64,000 nucleotides of DNA from Halorubrum salsamenti (GTDB taxonomy: Archaea; Halobacteriota; Halobacteria; Halobacteriales; Haloferacaceae): contig NZ_VCNL01000005.1 in assembly GCF_007671685.1 (NCBI RefSeq), positions 62,001-126,000 on the forward strand, read 5' to 3'. The translations under genes and the position numbers were made by a program. Of this stretch, positions 31,871-44,638 are shown piece by piece. Each line of letters starts with the position of its first letter. Within the stretch, counting starts at the first letter, position 1. The notes under the pieces were generated by a model. That model was not told where the DNA came from, made no database searches, and saw only the letters and a list, made by a program, of their open reading frames with translations.

Positions 31871-32125
31871 AACTATATTTAAATATGATATATTCTGATA
31901 ACGGACGTCTTCTCAGCGATCTCACGGAGTGCCTTCTCTCGCTCGATGAACTCCAGGTAGATCCATTCGACGCGCTTGGCGAGGCAAGCGCTTTTCGGCA
32001 AAGCAGTGAATCCCCGTTCCGATTTATCCCTGACTCACCAACGACCGAATTGCATATACAATAGTTCAATGGAATATGGTACCCAATTCCGTATTTTCAT
32101 AAGGGACTCCGATCTGTCGGCAGTC

Positions 32126-33310
32126 ATGAACGTGTCTCGGCTGGTCGCCGCGTTGTTCATTGTCATGGTGCTGGTGTCGCTTCCGGTTGCTCCCGCGGCC
32201 GCTCAGGACGGCGGCGGAGAAGCGGGAGAGTCGGGTGAAGGCGGTATCGAGGGACAGATCGAGGGGTTCATCGAAGGGCTCGGACTGGCGGGCGCCGTGG
32301 CCGTCCTCATCGTCGGCGCCGTCATTCTGACCGTCTGTGTCGAGAAACTGATAAGATATCTCACTCGGGCGGCGCTGGGGTTGCGGGTCTCGCTGTTCAC
32401 CCTCGCGATCATCTTCACCGGGATCGAGTTCGACGACACGGTCCTCGCGCTGGTGTTGTCCGCGGGCGACCTCGAGGGAGCCGCGCTCGGGACGGCGCTC
32501 GGTACGGGGCTGGCGATCGTCGGCGTCACGCTGGCGCTCGCCGCGATCATCAGGCCGTTCCCGGTCGATCTCCCGATCGACTACGTCGTGCTCTTCGCGT
32601 CGGGGCCACTACTGCTGATTCCGTTCGTGCTCATGGGGACCCTGACGACTATTCACGGGCTGCTGCTTCTCGGCTTCTTCCTCCTGACGTTCGGGTACAT
32701 CGTCGTCCGCGAGCGCCAGCGCGACACGCCGGTGTTTCGCAACACCGAACTCGGAGAGTCGCTCCGGGCCGACGGCGGGGTCACCGCGCCCCAGTCTCTC
32801 TCGGAGATCCCGGAAGACCGGCTCGTCGGCGGGCGGTCCGCGTCCGGGTGGCCGTGGATGGCGCTCTCCGTCCTCGCGCTGGCCGGGATCGTGTTCGCGT
32901 CGATGCTACTCGAGGGCGGCTCGGAGGTCGTCATGGAGGGCTTCGGCCTCGAACAGACCGTCTTCGGCGCCACCGTGCTGACGGCGATCCTGACGTTCGA
33001 GGACGTCATGCTCACGATCGAGCCGGTACGGCGGGGCGTTCCCGAGATCGGCGTGGGGAACGTCATCGGGAGCGTTCTCTTCTCGGTGACGGGCAACGTC
33101 GGCGTCATCATGCTACTCAGCGACCTCGAGATCTCTCAGTCGGTGCTGACGTTCCACCTCCCGTCGGTGATCCTCGTCACGACGCTGGCGGCGTACTTCC
33201 TCTACTCCGGGGAGCTCAAGCGCTGGCACGGGTTCCTCCTCGGCGGGCTCTACGTCGTCTACTGGGTGGCCGCGATCCTCGTCTTCGGTGGCGTTCCGAT
33301 CGGCGGGTGA
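32126..33310 (+). CDS. Sodium/calcium exchanger-type (CaCA) membrane protein
   Basis: A 394-residue membrane protein. A cleavable signal-like N-terminus (ending VAPAAAQ) is followed by a Gly/Glu-rich linker and about ten helices. The two inverted alpha-repeats of the CaCA superfamily can be seen as GIEFDDTVLALVLSAGDLEGAALGT and ILTFEDVMLTIEPVRRGVPEIGVGN followed by VIGSVLFSVTGNVG. The usual Ser/Thr-Glu core is partly changed (acidic Asp/Glu pairs kept), so the ion is uncertain. ATG 32126 fits TATTTTCATAAG about 30 bases upstream. Long open reading upstream of it is not used. Confidence 0.78.
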   Translation: MNVSRLVAALFIVMVLVSLPVAPAAAQDGGGEAGESGEGGIEGQIEGFIEGLGLAGAVAVLIVGAVILTVCVEKLIRYLTRAALGLRVSLFTLAIIFTGIEFDDTVLALVLSAGDLEGAALGTALGTGLAIVGVTLALAAIIRPFPVDLPIDYVVLFASGPLLLIPFVLMGTLTTIHGLLLLGFFLLTFGYIVVRERQRDTPVFRNTELGESLRADGGVTAPQSLSEIPEDRLVGGRSASGWPWMALSVLALAGIVFASMLLEGGSEVVMEGFGLEQTVFGATVLTAILTFEDVMLTIEPVRRGVPEIGVGNVIGSVLFSVTGNVGVIMLLSDLEISQSVLTFHLPSVILVTTLAAYFLYSGELKRWHGFLLGGLYVVYWVAAILVFGGVPIGG

Positions 33311-33410: not shown

Positions 33411-34718
33411 ATGGACACGGTTGAACACTGGGTGCTCGACGACGACGACCGCGTGCTCGTCGAGCGGTTAGCGGCTGGGCTCGGCCGCGACGCGGCGCGG
33501 GTGCTCGCATACCTTCTCTTGCGCCGCGACCACGACCGGATCGAGCGGGCGCGGGCGACGTCGATGGCGATCCGCATCGGGACGGGACTGAACGGGAAGG
33601 CCGTCGACGACGCCGTCTCGAAGCTCGAAACGCGGGACCTGATCGAGCGAGCGACCGTCGAGTCGTCCGGGGGCGGACGACCGCCGAACGCGTGGCGGCC
33701 CGCGCGCGACCGCCGCGAGACCCTCGACCGCGTGTACCATTCCCACTCGATCGCTCTCCTCGAACGAGCGGCCGCGGTCGCGGAGCTCGATCGAGAGCCG
33801 ACGGAGGGATCGGGCTCGCTCTCTGGGCCGGGGGACGAATCGGCGCCCGAGCGCGGTCCCGAGGTCGTCGTCGCGCTTAACTGGCGCCCGAACTCGCTCC
33901 ACCTTCCGCTGTACGCCGCCGTCGACGAGGGGGCATACGAGCGACGGGGGCTCGACGTGACCGTCACCAACCACCGCGGCTCGCACCGAGCGCTCGAAGC
34001 GGTACTGGACGGGGACGCGGACGTCGGGCTCGTCGGGGCGGGATCGGTCGTCCGGGCGCTGGCCGCGGACCGCCCGGTCGTACCGCTGGCCGTACTCCAC
34101 CAGCGAACCGCGACGGTGCTGTACGCGCTCCGTGGCCGCTTCGGCGAACCGTTCGAGAGCGTGAATCAGCTGCGCGGACGGCGGATCCTCACGACGACGG
34201 GCTCCGAGACGTGTCTACTTGCGAGGCTGTTCCTCTCTCAGGCCGACCTGCTCAGCGAGGTCGAACTCGTCGACGCCGACGGCGAGGAGCGCGACGCGCT
34301 GATCGCCGGCGACGCCGACGTAGCGACGGGATCGCTCGCCGATCCGCTCGAACTGGAGGCGGACAGCCGGACGGTCGACGTCCTCTCGATCGGCGACCAC
34401 TTCCCGATCTACGGGCTCACGCTCGTGGCCCCGGAGGCTGCGTTCGAACCGGAGAACGGCCGTTGGCGGCGATTCCTCGCGGGAACGTCCGCGGGCTGGG
34501 CGACGGCGAGGACCGATCCCGGCCCGGCGGCCACGGCGGTAGCCGCGGAGACGGACGAGTCCGCGAGCGCCGTGAGCGAGCGCTTCGCGCGGGCGGTCGA
34601 GTCGTTCGGGACGCGCGACGCGCTCCGAGACGAGGGGTGGGGGTGGCACGGGCCAGCGACATGGAACCGGCTGAAGACCGCGCTGGAGCAGGGCGATCTG
34701 CTCGGTGGGGCCCCATGA
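33411..34718 (+). CDS. HTH regulator fused to an SsuA/THI5-like substrate-binding domain
   Basis: A 435-residue protein without signal peptide. Residues 1-100 are a winged helix-turn-helix of TrmB/MarR type (ARVLAYLLLRRDHDR, KAVDDAVSKLETRDLIER, GGGRPPNAWRP). After a charged linker, residues about 150-435 form a type-2 periplasmic-binding fold: VALNWRPNSLHLPLYAAVDE, GDADVGLVGAGSVVRALA, and a tail RDEGWGWHGPATW. That tail matches REEGWGWSDPEPW in the transporter's binding protein at 37256-38431. It should sense the transported ligand in the cytoplasm and control the operon it heads; its stop overlaps the ATPase start by four bases (ATGA). Confidence 0.85.
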   Translation: MDTVEHWVLDDDDRVLVERLAAGLGRDAARVLAYLLLRRDHDRIERARATSMAIRIGTGLNGKAVDDAVSKLETRDLIERATVESSGGGRPPNAWRPARDRRETLDRVYHSHSIALLERAAAVAELDREPTEGSGSLSGPGDESAPERGPEVVVALNWRPNSLHLPLYAAVDEGAYERRGLDVTVTNHRGSHRALEAVLDGDADVGLVGAGSVVRALAADRPVVPLAVLHQRTATVLYALRGRFGEPFESVNQLRGRRILTTTGSETCLLARLFLSQADLLSEVELVDADGEERDALIAGDADVATGSLADPLELEADSRTVDVLSIGDHFPIYGLTLVAPEAAFEPENGRWRRFLAGTSAGWATARTDPGPAATAVAAETDESASAVSERFARAVESFGTRDALRDEGWGWHGPATWNRLKTALEQGDLLGGAP

Positions 34719-35494
34719 TCGAGATCGACGGTGTGACCGTCACGTTCGACGACGTACGGGCGATCAAAGACGTCGATCTGACGGTCGAAGACGGGGAGTT
34801 CCTCACGGTGGTCGGCCCGTCCGGCTGCGGAAAGACCACGCTGTTGCGGACCGTCGGCGGGCTCCAGGAGCCGACGACGGGCAGCGTCCGCGTGAACGGA
34901 GCGACCACGGACGCGGCGCGGACGAACGCGGAACTCGGGTACGTGTTCCAACAGCACACGCTGCTGCCGTGGAAATCGGCCGTCGAGAACGTCACGTTCC
35001 TCCGAGAGATGGCCGGGAAGTCGGCCGACAGGGAGGAGGCGAGGCGGCTCCTCCGCGAGGTCGGGCTGGAGGGGTTCGAGAGCGCTCGGCCGGCGGCGCT
35101 GTCGGGAGGGATGAAACAGCGGGTCGCCATCGCGCGGGCGATCCACCTCGGGGCGGAGATCCTGCTCATGGACGAGCCGTTCGGCGAGCTCGACGAGATA
35201 ACGCGAGAGCGGCTGGGCGTCGAGATTCGCAGGCTCTGGCGGGCCGAGCGGAAGACGGTCGTGTTCGTCACCCACAGCGTCCCGGAGGCCGTCTTCCTCG
35301 CCGACCGCTGCGTCGTCATGGAGAGCGATCCCGGCCGGGTCATCGAGACGTTCGAAGTCGACCTGCCTCGGCCGCGGACGGACGAGGTGTACAGCAGCGA
35401 CGCGTTCCAGGAACAGGTCGCCGCGATCCGGAGCGTGTTACACGAGAACCGCTCGGAGCCCTCGACCGCCGGACCGACGCTCACGGAGCCATGA
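34715..35494 (+). CDS. ABC transporter ATPase, nitrate/sulfonate/taurine (SsuB) type
   Basis: A 259-residue ATPase with Walker A GPSGCGKT, Q-loop YVFQQHTLLPW, signature LSGGMKQR, Walker B ILLMDEPF and switch His in FVTHSVPEA. The LPWKSAVENV segment is typical of SsuB/TauB/NrtD. It probably energises both membrane proteins encoded at 35491-36273 and 36336-37184. ATG 34715 overlaps the regulator's stop; its own stop overlaps the permease ATG (ATGA). Substrate class is nitrate, sulfonate, taurine or a thiamine-pyrimidine precursor by family; not resolvable further. Confidence 0.92.
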   Translation: MIEIDGVTVTFDDVRAIKDVDLTVEDGEFLTVVGPSGCGKTTLLRTVGGLQEPTTGSVRVNGATTDAARTNAELGYVFQQHTLLPWKSAVENVTFLREMAGKSADREEARRLLREVGLEGFESARPAALSGGMKQRVAIARAIHLGAEILLMDEPFGELDEITRERLGVEIRRLWRAERKTVVFVTHSVPEAVFLADRCVVMESDPGRVIETFEVDLPRPRTDEVYSSDAFQEQVAAIRSVLHENRSEPSTAGPTLTEP

Positions 35495-36273
35495 ACGAAC
35501 GCGTCCGAGGATCCGGATCGCCGGTGAGGGCGGCCGACGTGGCCCTCCCGCTCGCCGGGCTCGCGGGGGCGACCGGGGCGTGGTGGGCGCTCGTCGCCGC
35601 GTTGAACGTCCCCTCGTACCTCCTCCCCCCGCCGGACGCCGTCGCCGCGGTGATCGTCGGCAACCCGGGGATGTTCGCCCGGAACGCCGTCGCGACCGCG
35701 GAGAAAGTGGCGATCGGCGGCAGCGTCGGCGTCGCGACCGGGTTCCTTCTCGCGGTGTCGATCTCCCGCCTTCCGTGGCTCAGGCGTGCGGTCTACCCGT
35801 ACCTCGTCACCGTGCGAGTGCTCCCGAAGATCGCGATCGCACCGCTGCTGCTGATATACGTCGGCACCGGCACGACCACCGCGGTCGTCTTCATCGGGCT
35901 CATCGCGTTCTTCCCGATGGTGTTGAGCACGGCGGCGGGGTTCGAGCGCGTCCCGACCGAACAGCGGGACCTGCTTCGCTCGGTCGACGCCGACCCGCTG
36001 GACGCGTTTCTGCGGCTCGAACTGCCGTACGCCGTCCCCGACCTGTTCGCCGGGCTCAAGCAGTCGGTGACGCTCGCCGTCATCGGAGCCGTCGTCGCCG
36101 AGTGGCTCGTCTCCGACAGCGGACTCGGGTTCCTCATCCTCCTCGGCTCGGAGAACGTCCAGGTGGACCTCATGCTCGCCGCCCTGGCGGTGCTCGTCGC
36201 CCTCGGGCTCTCGCTGTACGGGCTGGTCGTCCTCGCGCAGCGCCGCCTCGGCTGGACGCCGGCCGCCGGTTGA
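35491..36273 (+). CDS. ABC transporter permease, SsuC type (first)
   Basis: A 260-residue membrane protein with about six helices and the binding-protein-dependent permease EAA-type loop (RSVDADPLDAFLRLELPYAVPDLFAGLKQSV). PSYLLPPPDAVAAVI near the N-terminus is typical for SsuC/TauC. Its start overlaps the ATPase stop by four bases. It converges on the second permease gene across a hairpin. Together with that gene it could form a heterodimer, which is unusual because SsuC transporters usually use one permease as a homodimer. Confidence 0.9.
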   Translation: MNERVRGSGSPVRAADVALPLAGLAGATGAWWALVAALNVPSYLLPPPDAVAAVIVGNPGMFARNAVATAEKVAIGGSVGVATGFLLAVSISRLPWLRRAVYPYLVTVRVLPKIAIAPLLLIYVGTGTTTAVVFIGLIAFFPMVLSTAAGFERVPTEQRDLLRSVDADPLDAFLRLELPYAVPDLFAGLKQSVTLAVIGAVVAEWLVSDSGLGFLILLGSENVQVDLMLAALAVLVALGLSLYGLVVLAQRRLGWTPAAG

Positions 36274-36320
36274 GGGGCCGGAAGCCGGTTCCCCGCGAGA
36301 GGCGGAGCGGACTCACAAGG

Positions 36321-36350
36321 AGGAAGCCCACGGCTTCAGCCGTGGGAGGA
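36321..36350. terminator. Strong hairpin CCCACGGC-TTCA-GCCGTGGG that contains the stop codon of the second permease
   Basis: Perfect eight-base stem at 36327-36346 flanked by GGAAG and AGGA. It lies between the two convergent permease genes and overlaps the last codons of the minus-strand one: the stem encodes His-Gly and the TGA is in the loop. The sequence resembles the 3' hairpin of haloarchaeal IS200/IS605 TnpB elements. It could terminate transcription from both sides. A near copy is at 46115-46139. Confidence 0.6.
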
Positions 36351-37184
36351 ATCCGACTCCGCCCACACCGCGCGTTCGAGGAGGACGGGACCGAGGTAGA
36401 AGGCGACACCGAGCGCCGACAGCGCGACCAGCGCGGCGTACGTCTCCGCGGTCTGGAGGCGTTGCGCGGTCACGAACACGCGGTAGCCGATACCGGCCCT
36501 GAGAGTGACGAACTCGGCGACGACGGCGCCGACGATAGACAGCGTCGCCGCGAGCTTGAGGCCGGCGAACACGCTCGGCGCGGCCGCGGGGACGCGCACC
36601 CGGAGGAACACGGACGGTTTCGACGCGTCGACGGAGCGCGCGAGCGCGAGGTATCGATCGGGCGTCGACCGGAGCCCGTCCAGCGTCGCAACGGTCATCG
36701 GGAACAGCGTCAGCGTCGCGACCAGCGCCGCGCGGGCGGGGATCCCTCGGCCGAACCAGAGGAAGACGAGCGGCGCGACCGCGATCAGCGGCGCGACCCG
36801 GAGCGCGATGACGTACGGTAACGCGATCCGAGCCGCCGTCCGAGAGTAGGTCATCGCGAACGCCAGCACGCCGCCGACGACGCAACCGGCCAGCAGGCCC
36901 GTCGCCGCGGTCGCGCCCGTCACGGCGGCGTCGGCGAGCAGCGTCGCGCCGCGGGCGACGAGTGCGTCGGCGACCGCGGCGGGCGTCGGCAGAATGATCG
37001 CCGGGATCGCGAGCGCGACGACGGTCGCGTGCCACGCGAGGACGAGCGCCACCAACAACAGCAGCGGCGGGACGACGGGCGTCGCCGCCGCGAGGGCCTG
37101 AGTCCGTATCCGACGTTCCCGACGCTTCCAGTTCGGGACGCCGGAGAGCGTCTGCGACTCGCGCGATCGCTCGGGTTCGGCCAT
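36336..37184 (-). CDS. ABC transporter permease, SsuC type (second)
   Basis: A 282-residue permease with a basic N-terminal extension (NWKRRERRIRTQ) and about six helices. IPAIILPTPAAVADALV corresponds to the PPPDAV segment of the first permease and SVDASKPSVFLRVRVPAAAPSVFAGLKL is the EAA-type loop that contacts the ATPase. It is downstream of the binding-protein gene by 71 bases on the same strand. No ATPase is encoded in this arm, so it must share the one at 34715. Its last residues (SSHG) and stop are supplied by the hairpin at 36327-36346. Confidence 0.9.
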   Translation of the reverse strand: MAEPERSRESQTLSGVPNWKRRERRIRTQALAAATPVVPPLLLLVALVLAWHATVVALAIPAIILPTPAAVADALVARGATLLADAAVTGATAATGLLAGCVVGGVLAFAMTYSRTAARIALPYVIALRVAPLIAVAPLVFLWFGRGIPARAALVATLTLFPMTVATLDGLRSTPDRYLALARSVDASKPSVFLRVRVPAAAPSVFAGLKLAATLSIVGAVVAEFVTLRAGIGYRVFVTAQRLQTAETYAALVALSALGVAFYLGPVLLERAVWAESDSSHG

Positions 37185-37255
37185 CGCTCACGGCACCCCG
37201 CTCGCGGGGCCGCCGCTCGTCGTCCGCCCGTCGACCGGGCGGAACGTGGCGGGGA

Positions 37256-38431
37256 TCACTGGTCGACGAGGTCGGCGTAATCGCCGATGTGCTCGTCGTC
37301 GGTGTCCAGGTACTCGTTCGTCCAGACCGCGTCGGGGTCGACCGACCCGTCGAAGAAGTCCCCGGCGTCCAGCGTCTCGTAAGTCTGCCGCCACGGCTCC
37401 GGATCGCTCCACCCCCATCCCTCCTCGCGGACCGTCTCGGAGACCATGTACTCGGAGCGCATCAGGTCCCACTTTGCGCGTTGGTTCTCCCGGACCTCCG
37501 ACAGTTCGCTCTGAGCGTCCACGAGCGCGTCGATCGCCCCCTCCGGATTCCGGTCGGCCCACACCGCCCCCCGCGCGGTCGCTCGGAGGAACGCGGCCAC
37601 GGTCTCCGGGTTCTCCTCGGCGAACGACTCCCCGACGGTGAGCAGGTGACCGTACGACGGGACGGCGTCGTGTACCGACAGCACGTCGATCTCGGCGCCC
37701 TGGTGGCGCGCGTCGACGACGTCGCCGAAGACGCCGCCCGCGGCGTCGATCTCCCCGTTGAGGAGCTGTTGGACCGTGTCGAACCCGGTATCGACGTATT
37801 CGACGTCAGTGACACCGGTGGCCTCGAAATACCCGCGCATCATCTGTCGGACCATCCCGGGTCCGCTCCCCACGGTCGCGCCCGACAGCTGCGACGGGTC
37901 CGTCAGTTCCTCGCCGAACCGCTCCCGCGACGAGAAGACGACGACGGGGCTCCGCTGCATCACGATCCCGACGGCCAGCGGCGAGAGGTCCCCGTCGTTG
38001 ACACCGAGGATCTGATCGCTGCTGGAGACGCCGAACTCGGTGTTGCCGAGCGCGACCTGCTGGGCCGAGAAATCGGACCCGTCGCCGCTCTCGATCGCGA
38101 CCGACTCGAACCCCTCGTCCTCGTAAAATCCCTGCGACTGCGCGGCGAAGTACGGCGCGTGAAGTCCGCTTATCCGCCAGTTGAGCAGTAGCGACGGGTT
38201 CTCGACGGCGAGGGCGTTGTCCTCGCCGCCGTCGTCGCTGTCGCTGCCGCCGCCGTCGCTATCGCTGCCGCCGTCGCTGCCGTTAGTGGTGTCGCCGCCG
38301 TCGTCGCCGTCCCCGTTCCCCCCGCCGTCGTCGCCGTCGCCACTGAAGCGGCCGGTACACCCCGATACCGCGGCCGTTCCGAGGGTGGCGAGGATCGCTC
38401 GCCTGGATCGGATCATCTCGTTTGACATCAT
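37256..38431 (-). CDS. ABC transporter substrate-binding lipoprotein, SsuA/THI5 type
   Basis: A 391-residue Tat lipoprotein: RSRRAILATLGTAAVSGCTG holds the twin arginine and the lipobox Cys. Then comes a long low-complexity Gly/Asp/Ser linker (about residues 30-75, encoded by GAC/GGC-type triplet runs), then the binding domain: LLLNWRISGLHAPYFAAQSQ, GNTEFGVSSSDQIL, EIDAAGGVFGDVV. The family binds sulfonates, nitrate, taurine or pyrimidine precursors. The C-terminal REEGWGWSDPEPW matches the fused regulator at 33411. ATG 38431 or 38428 are equally possible; an ATAAAT element lies near 38465. Confidence 0.9.
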   Translation of the reverse strand: MMSNEMIRSRRAILATLGTAAVSGCTGRFSGDGDDGGGNGDGDDGGDTTNGSDGGSDSDGGGSDSDDGGEDNALAVENPSLLLNWRISGLHAPYFAAQSQGFYEDEGFESVAIESGDGSDFSAQQVALGNTEFGVSSSDQILGVNDGDLSPLAVGIVMQRSPVVVFSSRERFGEELTDPSQLSGATVGSGPGMVRQMMRGYFEATGVTDVEYVDTGFDTVQQLLNGEIDAAGGVFGDVVDARHQGAEIDVLSVHDAVPSYGHLLTVGESFAEENPETVAAFLRATARGAVWADRNPEGAIDALVDAQSELSEVRENQRAKWDLMRSEYMVSETVREEGWGWSDPEPWRQTYETLDAGDFFDGSVDPDAVWTNEYLDTDDEHIGDYADLVDQ

Positions 38432-38548: not shown

Positions 38549-40816
38549 TCAGCGTCCCTCATCGGGCCGGTTCGATGTCGACTCGGCGGTTCGGTCTGCC
38601 TCCGTCTCGGCGGGGCGATCTCCCGCTGACCCGTCGGCCGGTTCCTCCTCGGACTCGCTCGGAGCGATCTCGTCGAGCGCCCGATCGAAGTGGTCGCCGG
38701 TGATCCGGATCCCGTCGACGTCGCGGTCGTGGTCGCGCACGTACTCTCGGATCGCCGCGGCCGCGGCCTCGCGACAGACCGCCTCGATGTCGGCGCCTAC
38801 GTACCCCTCCGTTCGGTCGACGAGGGCCTCGATGTCGACGTCGTCGGCGAGCGGTCGATCGCGACAGTGAACCGAGAAGATCTCCCGCCGCGCCGCTGCA
38901 TCCGGTCGGGGTACGCGGAGGTGCCGCTCTATCCGACCGGCCCGCAACAGCGCGTCGTCGATCAGGTCCTTCCGGTTGGTCGTGGCGACGACGACGACGT
39001 CCTCCATCTCTTCCAATCCGTCGAGCTCGGTGAGCAACTGCGAGACGACGCGCTCGCCGACGTTCGCGTCGGTCGATCCGCCGCGCTCGGCCGCGATCGC
39101 ATCGATCTCGTCGAAGAAGACGATCGTCGGCGCGTTCTGTCTGGCTTTCGAGAACACCTCGCGAACCCCCTTCTCGGACTCGCCGACGTACTTGTCCAGC
39201 AGCTCGGGACCCTTCACCGAGACGAAGTTCGACCGGCTCTCGTTGGCGACCGCCTTCGCGAGCAGCGTCTTCCCCGTCCCGGGCGGGCCGTACAGGAGGA
39301 TCCCGCGGTCGGGAGCGAGCGAGACCCGCTCGAACGCCTCGGGGTGTTCGAGCGGCCACTGCACCGTCTCGCGGAGCCGCTCTTTCACCGCTGTGAGCCC
39401 CCCTACGTCGTCCCAAGTGATATCCGGGACCTCGACGCTGATCGCTCGGAGCGCCGACGGCTCGACCTCCCGCAGGGCCGCCCGGAAGTCGTCGTCGGTG
39501 ACCGCGACCGACGCGGTGACCTCCGGGGGTGCGGTCTCCGGGTCGTCGGCGAGATCGGGCCATACGCGGCGGAGCGCGTTCATCGATGCCTCCGTCACCA
39601 GGCTCTCCAAGTCCGCCCCCACGAACCCGTGGGTGTTCCCCGCGTAGGCGTCGAGGTCGACTCCGTCGCTCACACGGAGCTCCCGCGTGTGGACCTCGAG
39701 AATCTCCTCGCGGCCGTCGCGATCGGGAACGCCGATCTCGATCTCTCGATCGAACCGGCCGGGCCGCCTGAGCGCCGGATCGATCGCGTCGACCTCGTTC
39801 GTCGTCCCGACCACCATCACGGGGTCCCGCTCGTCCAAGTCGTCGAGCAGCGAGAGCAGCTGTCCGACGAGGCGACCGCCTTCCTCCCCGCCGCGGGATC
39901 GGTCGCCGGCGATGGCGTCGAGTTCGTCGAGGATCAGAAGCGACGGCGCTTCCGCCGTCGCTTCCGCGAAGGCGTCACGGAGACGCTCCTCGCTTTCCCC
40001 TCGGTACTTCGAGGTCACTTCGGGGGCGCGGATCCGTACGACGTGGGCGTCCAGTTCGTTCGCCACGGCGTTCGAGAGGAGCGTCTTTCCCGCGCCCGGT
40101 GGCCCGTGTAACAGCACGCCGGTCGGTGGATTGGCACCGAGCTGTCGGAACAGCGACGGGTTCCGCATGGGCATCTCGACCGTCTCCCGGATCCGCCGTA
40201 CTGCGGAGTCGAGACCGCCGATATCGTCGTACGTCGCGTGCCCTTCCGGCCCCGCCGCCGGGAGTTCGACGTCCGTCGCGGGCTCCTCGGACACCCTCAA
40301 CCGCGTCCCCTCCCGCACGACGACTGGGCCGGACGGGTTCGTCTCCACGACCTTCACGGGCACCGTGCGCTCCGGCGTCCCGGGGACGGACTCGAGGCCG
40401 AGGGCGACCGGAACGACCTGTCCGGCCGCCAGGATCCGGTCGACGAGCGCGTCGCGGAAGGTAAACCCGAGCGCGTCGTCGATGTCGACCGCGTCCGGCA
40501 GCGCGACGACCGCCTCGTCCGCGTCGCGCGCGGCGGCGAGTCGGACCGCGACGGTGTCGTCGACGCCGGCACCGAGGGACTGCCGCATCCAGTGGGTCAC
40601 CCGAACGAGTCCGCCGTCGTCGGGTGCGGCGGGCCAGGCTCTCGCGGCGACCGATCCCCGCGGTCCCTCGAGGACGACGACATCGCCCTGACTCGCCCCG
40701 AGGGACCCCATCGTGTCCGAGTCGACTCGGACCACGCTGTCGTCGTCGTTCGCGTCGCCCCGCACCGACGCGACGCGGAGGGTCGCCTCCGACTTTCGGT
40801 CGTGGTTCGTTGGCAT
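38549..40816 (-). CDS. cdc48: CDC48/VAT-type AAA ATPase
   Basis: A 755-residue archaeal CDC48: double-psi barrel N-domain (about 1-180), D1 with Walker A GPPGAGKT (238-245) and Walker [12 protein letters not shown], and D2 with GPPGTGKT and [11 protein letters not shown] plus arginine fingers in RAGRIERH-type segments. It unfolds or segregates protein complexes and may feed the proteasome. The C-terminal tail (about 710-755) is acidic and low complexity. ATG 40816 is chosen because it starts the N-domain; the upstream extension is poor. Haloarchaea carry several CDC48 paralogues; this is a divergent one with an unusually short D1-D2 link. Confidence 0.93.
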
Positions 40817-40984
40817 GGTTGTTTCCGTTGGGACGACGACGGGAAGCGTAATGAAACCGTGGGACGCCACCGCGACCGTAGGGACCTACCGGCCCCGAAA
40901 TTCCGGCTCCGGGCGGTTCGACCGGGCGATCGAGACCGCCGCTCCAACCGTACGTTGAAGAGAACCGCGCACGTGGGACTCGGC

Positions 40985-41661: not shown

Positions 41662-41930
41662 TATGGCTGCCAAAAATATAAGATATTAGGTATTAAACGC
41701 CGACGTTCCGAACGTTACGGCGGAGCGGTCACGTATCTGGCTCCGCCGAACCCGGACGCTGCCGAGTTTCGGAAGTCGATTTGTAGCTCTCGAGTCACTC
41801 GTCGTGGCCGGTGATCGTCCCGTCGCGTCCCGCGATCGGTACCACTCCTTGACGCGGGGCGAAATCTCCGCCGACGCTTATCGGAGCGATGACCGACTGT
41901 GACGTCGATCGCGCAATCATGTCACATTGT

Positions 41931-41946
41931 TATAATAATTATTATA
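41931..41946. promoter_or_regulatory. Perfect palindrome TATAATAATTATTATA, probable promoter/operator
   Basis: A perfect 16-base inverted repeat upstream of the gene at 41979. Its right half (TTATTATAT) is placed to act as TATA box for a transcript starting near 41971. A protein binding it would block that promoter. A GTATTGTG motif (reverse, ACACAATACT) follows at 41961-41970. Confidence 0.5.
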
Positions 41947-41978: not shown

Positions 41979-42908
41979 ATGGTGTCTCCGCACCACGATA
42001 CCACTATGACGAGACCACAGATCACGATCGACGGCCGAGACGAACTCACTGATACGCTCGGAATCAGTCGGTCGGATGTCGGCGAGAGACCTACGTTATC
42101 GGAGCTCAGACGAACAGTCGAGACGGAAACAGATCCGGAGTTCGCCTCGATGGGCGAGGCGATCCGCGACGACCTTTCGGGGGAGCTCGACGCCGAACTG
42201 CTCGCGTCGGAGCTCGCGGCGTTCGAAGAGCAGATCGCTCGGCTCCCAGAGATCCGTGATGCGGGGATTCCGGACGGAGAGAAAGAGCCGGAGGCGCTGT
42301 ATCGTGAGGTCATCCAGCCCGCGTGGCGCCTCTACGATCACCTCGTCGAGACCGGGTTCTTCGAGAGCCTCGAGGAGCGACTCCCGCGGTTCACGCCGGA
42401 CCACATCGAGCGAACGGCACACGAGCTGGTTCGACTCGACGCGTTGGGCGACGAACTCGGAGATCTCGGGTTCGATGAGCGAGAGAGGACAGTGCTCGTG
42501 ATGAACGTGGTGAACAACAACACTCGCCTCGCTCGGTGGGTCCCGACGAAAGAGATCCCGAGCGACGTGGAGTTCGATGTCGAACACGTCCCACCGCTCC
42601 ATAAGCGCGCTATGGGCGGGGCGTTGCTGTGGATCAACTCCATGGACGTCCACCTCTGGCAGAAGGAGGTGCTCGTTACCGAGGAGATCCTCGACGACGG
42701 CTACTGGGACGTGAAAGCGATGCTCGCCGGCGTGGATCTGATCGCGCGGGCGGCGCTCGACATCGCCGAAGGAGGAGCGATGAGCGACTCCCAGCTGGTA
42801 GCCGCGCTGACCGGCGGTGCCGCGATCGCGATCGTCAATCAAGAGGAGATATGTAAGGACGTGTACTGGATCACGGAAGAGATGCGCGCTCCGAGTCCGG
42901 CACGTTAG
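41979..42908 (+). CDS. Unrecognised helical protein coupled to the PQQ dehydrogenase
   Basis: A 309-residue soluble, acidic, mostly helical protein. I do not recognise its family. Notable segments are VMNVVNNNTRLARWVPTKEI, PPLHKRAMGGALLWINSMD and CKDVYWITEEM. No signal peptide, cofactor motif or membrane helix is visible. Start 41979 fits the TATA element in the palindrome; ATG 42006 (MTRPQITIDG) is nearly as likely. Its stop codon overlaps the Shine-Dalgarno sequence of the quinoprotein gene, so the two are translationally coupled and the protein may assist PQQ insertion, stability or electron transfer. That role is inference only. Confidence 0.75.
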   Translation: MVSPHHDTTMTRPQITIDGRDELTDTLGISRSDVGERPTLSELRRTVETETDPEFASMGEAIRDDLSGELDAELLASELAAFEEQIARLPEIRDAGIPDGEKEPEALYREVIQPAWRLYDHLVETGFFESLEERLPRFTPDHIERTAHELVRLDALGDELGDLGFDERERTVLVMNVVNNNTRLARWVPTKEIPSDVEFDVEHVPPLHKRAMGGALLWINSMDVHLWQKEVLVTEEILDDGYWDVKAMLAGVDLIARAALDIAEGGAMSDSQLVAALTGGAAIAIVNQEEICKDVYWITEEMRAPSPAR

Positions 42909-42919: not shown

Positions 42920-44638
42920 ATGGCAATAGAAGAAGACAGAGCGGTCAAGGCCGCACAGGACACGGTCGTACGTGAGACAGATCAGGGGTATCGAGTGCTC
43001 GGATCGCCCGAGGAGTCCGTTACCCACCAGCACGACACCGATCGCATTCCGCGCAAGGATATCACCGAGGAGGACATCATCGACTCGGCGGACGATCCGG
43101 AGGCGTGGCTCACGTACGGCGGGAACTACGAACAGCACCGCTGCACCACCGCGGACGTGATCACTCCCGAAAACGTCGGCGACCTCGAGCTCGAGTACGA
43201 GCTCCACGTCGGCGCGGAGTCCAGCATGGAGGGCACGCCGCTGGTGGTCCCCGGCGATCCGCCGGTGATGTACCAGTCGAACGGACCGAACCACGTCAAG
43301 GCGATCGACACGCGGTCGGGCGACGTGCTGTGGAGCTACACGTACGCGGTACCGTCGGACGTCGTTCTCTGCTGTGACGACAACAACCGCGGCGTGGCGA
43401 TCCTCGACGACAAGGTGTTCATGACGACGCTCGACTCGGGCGTCGTCGCGCTCAACCGATACACCGGCGAGGAAGAGTGGTACACGGGCACGGCCGACCA
43501 CGAGTCCGGATACTCCGCGACGTGGGCGCCGGTGGTGTACGACGGCAAGGTGTTCACCGGCAGCGCCGGCGGCGAGTACGGCGTCCGCGGCTTCCACGTC
43601 GCGCTCGACGCCGAGACCGGCGACGAGGTGTGGCGCACGATGACGTCGCCCGACGAGGAGTGGGTCGGCGACAGCATCGAGCAATCGTGTGCGACCAACT
43701 GGATGACGGCGACGATCGACACCGAAAACGAGAAGCTGTACATGCCGGTCGGGAACCCCGGCCCCGACTTCGACGGCTCCGTCCGACCGGGACCGAACCG
43801 GAACAGCGCGGGAACGCTCTGTCTCGACATGCAGACCGGCGAGCGCGAGTGGTTCCACCAGGAGTCTCCCCACGACGTGTGGGACTACGACTCCGCGGCG
43901 CCCCGGCTGCTCATCCCTGACTTCGAGATGGAGCACCGCGACTTCGAGGGCGACGCCGTCGTCTCCTTCGGAAAGACCGCGTGGGGCTACACGCTCGACG
44001 CGGACACCGGCGAGCTCCTCAACCGGAGCGAGCCGGGGGTTCAGCAGCTGAACATGTTCCGGATGATCCCGCACATCGACGAGGGCCGGCGGATGCCGTT
44101 CATGCCCGGCGCGATGGGCGGTAACGACTGGCAGCCGCCCGCGTACAACCCCGAGCTCGGCCTCGCGTACTTCAAGATGAACAACTCGCCCCAGGAGGCC
44201 TGGTGGCGGTTCGAGGAGTACGAAGAGGGCAAGAAGTACTGGGGCGGTATCCTCGAAGACGAGATCGACCAGCCTCCGGAGGGGTACAACGACCACATCA
44301 GCGCCGTCGGCGCTATCGATCCGGAGACCGGACAGCTCGTCTGGCGCGACTGGATCGACAGCGACGCCTACATCTGGGGCGGGCTGTTGACCACCGAGAG
44401 CGGCGTCGTCTTCGGCGGGACCCAGAACGGCGACGTCATCGCCTGGGACGGCGAGACCGGCGACCGTCTTTGGGAGTACTCCACGGGTGAGACGGCCATC
44501 TCCGGCAGCCCGATGAGCTGGTACGACCCCGAGACAGAGAAGCAGTACGTGGCCATTCAGGTCGGCGGCAGCGGCTGGCTCCGCCGCGGCACCGCCGGCC
44601 GCGACGACCGGCTCTGCGTGTTCTCGCTCGAGGCGTAA
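42920..44638 (+). CDS. PQQ-dependent alcohol/methanol-type dehydrogenase with lanthanide-type active site
   Basis: A 572-residue eight-bladed quinoprotein propeller with tryptophan-docking repeats (GDVLWSY, GEEEWYT, GDEVWRT, GEREWFH, GQLVWRD, GDRLWEY). The vicinal disulfide pair of quinoprotein alcohol dehydrogenases is present (VLCCDDN, Cys151-Cys152). Metal ligands align with XoxF/MxaF: Glu219 in AGGEYGVRG, Asn279 in VGNPGP, catalytic Asp322 in HDVWDYDS. Asp324, two residues on, is the extra ligand that marks lanthanide-dependent enzymes (Ala in calcium MxaF). No signal peptide is visible, unlike periplasmic bacterial relatives. Substrate and electron acceptor unknown; no PQQ synthesis genes or cytochrome are in the window. 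Confidence 0.88.
   Translation: MAIEEDRAVKAAQDTVVRETDQGYRVLGSPEESVTHQHDTDRIPRKDITEEDIIDSADDPEAWLTYGGNYEQHRCTTADVITPENVGDLELEYELHVGAESSMEGTPLVVPGDPPVMYQSNGPNHVKAIDTRSGDVLWSYTYAVPSDVVLCCDDNNRGVAILDDKVFMTTLDSGVVALNRYTGEEEWYTGTADHESGYSATWAPVVYDGKVFTGSAGGEYGVRGFHVALDAETGDEVWRTMTSPDEEWVGDSIEQSCATNWMTATIDTENEKLYMPVGNPGPDFDGSVRPGPNRNSAGTLCLDMQTGEREWFHQESPHDVWDYDSAAPRLLIPDFEMEHRDFEGDAVVSFGKTAWGYTLDADTGELLNRSEPGVQQLNMFRMIPHIDEGRRMPFMPGAMGGNDWQPPAYNPELGLAYFKMNNSPQEAWWRFEEYEEGKKYWGGILEDEIDQPPEGYNDHISAVGAIDPETGQLVWRDWIDSDAYIWGGLLTTESGVVFGGTQNGDVIAWDGETGDRLWEYSTGETAISGSPMSWYDPETEKQYVAIQVGGSGWLRRGTAGRDDRLCVFSLEA

Follow-up and report, generated by a model that had tools for sequence, protein, structure and literature searches.

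A MarR-like head joined to an NMT1/THI5-fold domain: a putative regulator of an importer/quinoprotein module in haloarchaea, with PQQ as candidate ligand

A 435-aa open reading frame in Halorubrum salsamenti (window positions 33411-34718, plus strand; the window is the 64-kb stretch of NZ_VCNL01000005.1 analysed here, and all coordinates refer to it) encodes a helix-turn-helix domain joined to an ABC binding-protein fold. We propose that this protein, R, acts as a one-component regulator of an importer/quinoprotein module and that its most likely ligand is PQQ, a reading to which we assign a probability of about 0.5. Regulators built on binding-protein folds are known; what is new here is the joining of a MarR-like head to the NMT1/THI5 fold, a fusion that our scans returned from haloarchaea only. 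In public records R is annotated as a plain ABC substrate-binding protein, and its role has therefore been hidden.

The binding-protein part of R is readily recognized. PF09084 (NMT1/THI5-like) matches residues 162-371 with an E-value of 3.7e-25 (89.5 bits against a gathering score of 20.5) and, in a Pfam and NCBIfam scan of 41 aligned family members with Pfam matches listed at E<=0.1, was found in all 41; the SsuA family TIGR01728 gives E 1.8e-8 for R, under its cut-off. In the AlphaFold model (pLDDT 90.9, pTM 0.89), residues 26-97 (33486-33701) follow the helix-helix-helix-strand-strand order of a predicted winged helix, with an invariant GRP..W in the wing. There follow a long helix (101-126), which probably serves in dimerisation, a disordered linker (130-144) and the sensor domain proper (150-434; 33858-34712). 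The head is less easily classified: the winged helix of the window's R has no Pfam match, MarR_2 matches 21 of the 41 members weakly (best E 7.7e-6), and NCBIfam MreA matches 37 of 41, again weakly, with the window's R under the MreA cut-off. By eye, the N-terminus starts with the winged helix and carries no hydrophobic signal sequence of the kind an exported binding protein would have, which supports a cytosolic location. Pfam detects no ATPase domain within R, and the ATPase is encoded by a gene of its own, so that R is not a fusion of the NrtC/CmpC type. The winged helix and the SsuA/THI5-type domain without signal peptide that had been predicted from the letters of the DNA alone are thus both borne out.

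R heads a compact importer locus. Its stop codon overlaps the start of an ABC ATPase gene (A; 34715-35494, plus strand; PF00005, with the best NCBIfam scores going to taurine/Sao/nitrate types, all under cut-off) in an ATGA at 34715-34718, and a second ATGA (35491-35494) joins the ATPase to permease 1 (P1; 35491-36273, plus strand; PF00528). On the minus strand lie permease 2 (P2; 36336-37184; PF00528) and S, an exported binding lipoprotein (37256-38431; NMT1 domain at residues 91-299), which, unlike R, starts with a lipobox-like RR...GC; together these genes make up the importer S-P1-P2-A. Directly upstream of R is a gene for a Na+/Ca2+-exchanger family protein (31976-33310, plus strand). Full-length R occurs in 59 of 391 haloarchaeal genomes surveyed, an ATPase gene follows it in 40 of the 59 loci, and the ATGA overlap is retained in 37 of those 40. 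The fusion is therefore not a product of chance, and the translational coupling put forward in the original prediction holds well beyond this genome. The whole arrangement, R-ATPase-permease facing permease-lipoprotein, is kept at 37 of the 59 loci. With coupling and five-gene layout both conserved, R is naturally read as a local regulator.

Might R simply be a copy of the binding protein next door, sensing the same ligand from the inside? The likeness between the C-terminus of R (RDEGWGWHGPATW) and that of S (REEGWGWSDPEPW), from which such copying had been argued, is real; however, the GWG(W)..W tail occurs in every family branch examined, and being family-wide it is no evidence, and is ruled out as a sign, of copying between the two. 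Two trees place R and S in separate, well supported clades (support for the R sensor clade 100/99), which rules out a recent origin of R by copying from S and marks the R sensor as an old clade of its own. In an AU test, a grouping of R with S on one side of a branch is not rejected (p 0.19). The further claim that R senses the ligand of S is weakened. Both proteins keep W158, R/K232, R241, G307 and D311 (R numbering, here and below), but E266, G291, E292 and E293, invariant in R, correspond in S mostly to M, F/Y, D and T. The invariant sites that differ among R, S and S2, a third lineage of the family, may line the pocket, and R may consequently not read exactly what S binds. R/K at 232 and R at 241 are common to R, S and S2 and missing from all four other haloarchaeal NMT1 proteins compared; two basic sites would suit an anionic ligand. 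The window's own genome (G000 in our survey) also encodes an NMT1 protein (G000:C1:189474) that begins like a lipoprotein and is followed by a permease gene.

The strongest clue to the ligand, which the sulfonates, nitrate and thiamine precursors suggested originally leave out, is a link to PQQ-type alcohol dehydrogenases. The window carries one such enzyme (42920-44638, plus strand; 572 aa), XoxF/PedH-like and with CC 151-152, E219, N279 and D322-Y-D324, which scores 371 of the 480 bits required by TIGR03075 (methanol/ethanol quinoproteins) and so stays under that cut-off. Across 31 dehydrogenases, the catalytic N and the D-Y-D (the lanthanide DYD motif) are present in all, the catalytic E in 28 (D in the other three) and the CC in 23. 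Neither the window's enzyme nor its relatives have a signal peptide visible by eye; this lanthanide-type quinoprotein would thus appear to be cytosolic, or to be loaded with cofactor in the cytosol. Directly before the quinoprotein gene lies gene 4 (42006-42908, plus strand, with a longer frame starting at 41889), which encodes an all-helical protein of unknown family: a search of solved structures gave no match at E<=1, and the best fold comparison (Z 6.2) is uninformative.

Counting raw genomes, kin included, 59 of the 391 have R, 68 have the dehydrogenase and 57 have both, and S is found in 47, of which 45 have the dehydrogenase. An R relative (E<=1e-10) is present in all 68 dehydrogenase genomes and in only 7 of the 323 others. 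Within the window's genus, all three co-occurrence searches pick out an identical set of four genomes (G000, G194, G279 and G292). S orthologues are absent from 17 of the 59 R genomes. R and dehydrogenase lie within 20 kb of each other in 47 of 54 same-contig pairs (the pair in G191 is ~249 kb apart), and a divergent gene 4-dehydrogenase pair adjoins R at 9 of the 59 loci.

None of the 68 dehydrogenase genomes has PqqC or PqqE over cut-off, although for PqqC the 14 control genomes provided no positive control. Such cells, with a quinoprotein but no PQQ synthesis that can be recognised, would have to take PQQ up from outside. PqqT, a PQQ-binding protein with a Kd of 50 nM as quoted in PMC12124388, shares the fold of the sensor (9b1u, Z 20.8; 9ooz, Z 21.1; 20.7-21.1 when 9b1v is included). 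Quinoprotein company, missing PQQ synthesis and common fold all speak for PQQ, alone or with Ca2+ or Ln3+, as the most likely ligand. A fuller version of this model, in which R senses PQQ (or PQQ with Ca2+/Ln3+) in the cell while S-P1-P2-A imports PQQ into the cytosol of archaea unable to make it, to supply a lanthanide-type quinoprotein that folds in the cytoplasm and, in this clade, probably acts there as well, is a tentative proposal that we regard as plausible but short of probable.

Sequence comparison on its own points elsewhere. Profiles of R, S and S2 match pyrimidine and thiamin binders (ThiY 3ix1; thiamin-bound 4nmy) and THI5, PqqT is not among their sequence-profile matches at E<=0.01, and in fold comparison ThiY (Z 29.1) stands above PqqT (Z 21.1). 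R also shares with ThiY a W-x-P-N-x-x-H stretch where the domain begins and an acidic residue (E292 in R, D218 in S). Perhaps, then, R and the importer handle thiamine or its pyrimidine (HMP, formyl-aminopyrimidine), in which case R would sense thiamine precursors and its link to the quinoprotein would be a mere neighbour effect. We consider this unlikely and rank it under PQQ: the window's own genome has ThiC and therefore does not need pyrimidine import for thiamine, the presence of R tracks the dehydrogenase, and on our reading of the alignment R232 and R241 face non-basic residues of ThiY.

Alternatively, the importer might take up a lanthanide or calcium chelate, or the substrate of the dehydrogenase, with R sensing that compound or the aldehyde product. 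Such a scenario has precedent in Pseudomonas, where PedA1A2BC is described as a lanthanide importer tied to PedH (PMC6839425), and would give a place to the Na+/Ca2+-exchanger genes that recur at 34 of the 59 R loci and the aldehyde ferredoxin oxidoreductase genes at 12 of them. However, the NMT1-type proteins in our fold lists whose ligand is known take small organic compounds or oxyanions, and the R/S/S2 group accompanies dehydrogenases as divergent as 35-45% identity with that of the window, enzymes that may well differ in substrate. We therefore see this scenario as possible but on balance doubtful. Finally, the sensor-like domain might bind no small ligand at all and be a docking or dimerisation part, R answering some other signal such as protein contact with the importer, in the manner of the cytosolic regulatory domains of NrtC and CmpC. 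Those domains share the fold, and no ATPase gene adjoins R at 19 of the 59 loci; yet W158, N161, G209, E266, G291-E293, D311, W410 and W418 are each conserved in all 59 sequences or in all but one, as one would expect of a working site, which makes this explanation very improbable.

How might R work under the preferred, PQQ-based reading? The model and the conserved layout would fit a regulator in which ligand arriving in the cytosol makes the two lobes of the sensor close and thereby changes how an R dimer binds DNA. Its targets would be the ABC importer of its own operon and, in some relatives at least, the divergent operon of gene 4 and the quinoprotein. Neither alignments nor a search for palindromic motifs in 88 promoters yielded an operator common to the R, S and gene-4 promoters; motifs differ between the three and each exceeds dinucleotide-resampled controls, but they are AT-rich and partly TATA-like. 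The nearly exact company that R keeps with quinoproteins of lanthanide signature, in genomes lacking known PQQ synthesis, makes for a concrete, testable claim on how archaea obtain and sense PQQ and, if true, would open the uptake of PQQ into a cytoplasm to genetics and provide a ready PQQ biosensor. A literature search, mostly outside subscription papers, turned up no account of a haloarchaeal quinoprotein accompanied by a regulator of this sort; PMC9499683 mentions haloarchaea just in passing, and passages of PMC11996626 contain nothing on them.

Several known systems resemble R in part. SgrR-type regulators of enterobacteria are likewise one-component proteins that sit beside an importer and join a DNA-binding head to an ABC binding-protein fold. 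SgrR uses the SBP_bac_5 family and a head family of its own; the 25 families listed for the 41 R members (E<=0.1) include neither of these, and the members have NMT1 instead. LysR-type regulators also combine a helix-turn-helix with a periplasmic-binding-protein-like effector domain, in their case an HTH_1 head with LysR_substrate; in R the head is MarR-like and the binding-protein part a complete NMT1 domain, and among the 41 members LysR_substrate appears once (E 0.049) and HTH_1 is not listed. An example is CysB (PMC11329422), with its type II binding-protein-fold effector. The cytosolic domains of NrtC and CmpC (9uai, 9uak, 8wm7; Z ~21) are likewise cytosolic copies of a binding-protein fold, in their case inside an importer, but are joined to the ATPase rather than to a DNA-binding domain. 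These regulatory domains are thought to act on transport.

Among the binding proteins, ThiY, the thiamin-binding protein and THI5 (3ix1, 4nmy, 4h65) are closest to R, S and S2 in both sequence and fold, but belong to a thiamine context; R differs from them at the basic sites 232 and 241 and carries a helix-turn-helix. PqqT of Methylorubrum extorquens has the same fold and binds PQQ, but is periplasmic and has no helix-turn-helix. The closest parallel in gene content comes from the bacterial Ped/Xox systems, in which a lanthanide-type PQQ alcohol dehydrogenase likewise has its own ABC importer and regulator (PMC6839425 and PMC12997753). There, the enzymes are periplasmic and a different kind of importer is used, and the lanthanide regulator of the Ped system is the two-component pair PedS2-PedR2 (PMC12997753), whereas R would do the work of a regulator as a single component.

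The protein encoded at 33411-34718 on the forward strand (435 aa, hereafter R) ends in an NMT1/THI5-like domain (PF09084 in Pfam, E 3.7e-25). In an AlphaFold model built from 41 aligned sequences (mean pLDDT 90.9, pTM 0.89), its head is a winged helix, with helices at 26-40, 51-58 and 62-74 and a strand pair at 78-82/93-97; from there the chain runs through one long helix (101-126) and a disordered linker (130-144) into the binding-protein fold, which spans 150-434. Domain match and model together bear out the original prediction of a helix-turn-helix (HTH) joined to a binding-protein fold. Within the wing, G89-R90-P91 and W95 are invariant across the alignment. Pfam names no family for the head of the window's R; across the R family, heads give weak matches to MarR_2 (21 of 41 members) and MreA (37 of 41). 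The closest solved fold is ThiY (3ix1; Z 29.1, rmsd 3.0, 281 aligned), with thiamin-bound 4nmy (Z 27.1), THI5 (Z 22-25) and SsuA (Z 22-23) further down.

R overlaps the following ABC ATPase gene by ATGA (34715-34718), as that gene does permease 1 (35491-35494), while permease 2 and S, an exported binding lipoprotein (37256-38431, reverse strand), lie on the opposite strand, facing this run. Translational coupling to the importer, as predicted, holds up well beyond the window: comparing 59 R loci, the window's own and 58 fetched ones, we find the ATPase directly after R in 40, 37 of which keep the 4-nt overlap, and the complete order (R, ATPase and permease 1 facing permease 2 and S) in 37 of 59. 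An overlap conserved this deeply supports R being translated jointly with its importer. At two loci from different genomes (L076, L081), R is divergent, and in place of the ATPase, both permeases and S it adjoins different NMT1 lipoproteins and another permease gene. Scanning a collection of named genomes with the R alignment, which reaches close relatives only, returned 44 loci, 10 of them matching the binding domain only; all are haloarchaeal by title (Halorubrum lipolyticum, Natronococcus, Haloterrigena salina and Natrinema among them) except L134, labelled only 'Euryarchaeota archaeon'. Homologues of R are entered in public plasmid records as either 'ABC transporter substrate-binding protein' or 'hypothetical protein'; in L181 and L183 the former name misses the winged helix.

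Where did the sensor domain come from? It had been proposed that R carries a copy of the neighbouring S, a view our trees do not support. Using two author-chosen subsets (80 and 48 domains, the latter with two distant outgroups added) of 147 collected NMT1 domains, we find that in both trees R and S each form a group of their own, as does the signal-less third lineage S2, arguing that R did not arise as a copy of the adjacent gene. R falls on one side in 30/30 rows (SH-aLRT 95) and 17/17 (100/99), respectively, and S in 21/21 (support 100) and 15/15 (100/100); the outgroup-bearing tree places S and S2 together, apart from R (95/96), though an AU test does not reject grouping R with S (p 0.19). 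The C-terminal tail that R and S share, W410, G411 and W418 in R numbering, is found in R (59, 59 and 59 of 59), S (42, 43 and 43 of 43) and S2 (28/28 each), and at each site in 4/4 other NMT1 proteins. Those four proteins lack both a basic residue at 232 (R 58/59, S 41/43, S2 28/28) and R241 (53/59, 41/43 and 27/28). Sites 266 and 291-293 read E, G, E, E in all 59 R sequences, whereas the majority of the 43 S sequences have M, F/Y, D, T and most of the 28 S2 sequences have K, P/K, H, T; if these sites line the pocket, the three lineages would bind different ligands or ligand forms.

A PQQ-type alcohol dehydrogenase (42920-44638) lies nearby, and its distribution tracks that of R. Our search for the fusion elsewhere, across 391 genomes of the class, found R in 59 and the dehydrogenase (E<=1e-60) in 68, with 57 carrying both; G029 and G163 have R alone, and 11 genomes the dehydrogenase without R. 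S orthologues occur in 47 genomes, 45 of them with the dehydrogenase and 42 with R. Any relative of R (R, S, S2 or kin; E<=1e-10) is present in 68/68 dehydrogenase genomes versus 7/323 others. Fisher tests give p values of 1e-54 and 1e-68, which ignore relatedness; cleaner evidence comes from the window's genus, where the same four genomes are positive for R, dehydrogenase and S, and at least 20 others among those listed are negative in each search. Of 53 measured pairs that share a contig, 47 have R and dehydrogenase no more than 20 kb apart; a 54th pair, in G191, is separated by ~249 kb.

The closest solved relatives of this enzyme are PedH (6zcv) and XoxF (4mae). Among 31 aligned members (the window's plus 30 from fetched loci), N279 and D322-Y323-D324 are kept in 31/31, E219 in 28 (D in three) and a CC pair in 23; for lanthanide-dependent and bona fide methanol dehydrogenases, both DYD and the CC pair have been given as marks (PMC7300363). 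By eye none of the 31 carries a signal peptide, a few rows having over-extended starts, whereas the bacterial counterparts of these XoxF/PedH-like enzymes are periplasmic. Preceding the dehydrogenase is gene 4 (42006-42908), whose product is confidently modelled as all-helical (pLDDT 91) and has no match in Pfam, NCBIfam or solved sequences (best fold Z 6.2). Some divergent gene 4 proteins (e.g. L067, L072, L077-L080, L103, L110) start with a Tat-like RRxFLK, so in these cases the two proteins may be exported jointly in folded form; exported or not, cofactor insertion would be cytosolic. Upstream of gene 4, at about 41931-41946, a perfect 16-bp AT palindrome, TATAATAATTATTATA, is a candidate operator or promoter element; relatives have a different dyad, GATAAGTATTATC, at this promoter.

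Cells with the dehydrogenase probably obtain PQQ externally, given that none of the 68 genomes yields PqqE (best 139 bits versus 381) or PqqC at cut-off (best E 0.0045, with 0/14 control genomes giving the positive control). PqqT, which shares the sensor's fold (9ooz, Z 21.1 against the R model; 9b1u, 20.8; 9b1v, 20.7), binds PQQ with a reported Kd of 50 nM (PMC12124388). Sequence counts against PQQ, placing R, S and S2 closer to pyrimidine/thiamin binders than to PqqT, which is absent from their profile matches at E<=0.01. This proximity would favour a thiamine- or pyrimidine-type ligand, an explanation weakened, as regards thiamine need, by ThiC in the window's own genome. Import of a lanthanide has a precedent in the route described for PedA1A2BC (PMC6839425). 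We hypothesize that the ligand is PQQ, which we rank highest since the pattern of occurrence tracks the entire dehydrogenase class.

Other neighbours recur. Single-linkage clustering of our gene calls in the flanks of the 59 loci, with one or two members per cluster compared with Pfam or NCBIfam, recovers Na+/Ca2+-exchanger proteins (34 loci, frequently paired), dehydrogenase, gene 4 and amphi-Trp proteins (29 each) and aldehyde ferredoxin oxidoreductase (12); R is divergent from gene 4-dehydrogenase in nine. An exchanger family gene lies directly upstream of R (31976-33310), possibly for Ca2+/Ln3+ handling. Between S and gene 4, 38549-40870 encodes a large Cdc48-like AAA ATPase, in which two such modules can be recognized by eye; its cluster is present in 10 of 59 loci. 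S2 itself (E<=1e-60) occurs in 38/391 genomes, 37 with the dehydrogenase, and has no match in the window's genome. Elsewhere (L039, L056, L058, L062, L094, L102, L183 and others) three successive signal-less NMT1 genes (S2, clusters 12 and 7) accompany a cupin and a glyoxalase-fold protein, often alongside an aldehyde oxidoreductase. Might these NMT1 proteins be cytosolic binding-fold enzymes or chaperones?

Most likely, then, R serves the importer/quinoprotein module. Regulators joining an HTH to a binding-protein fold are already known as a kind, and R would be a variant with a specific candidate ligand.
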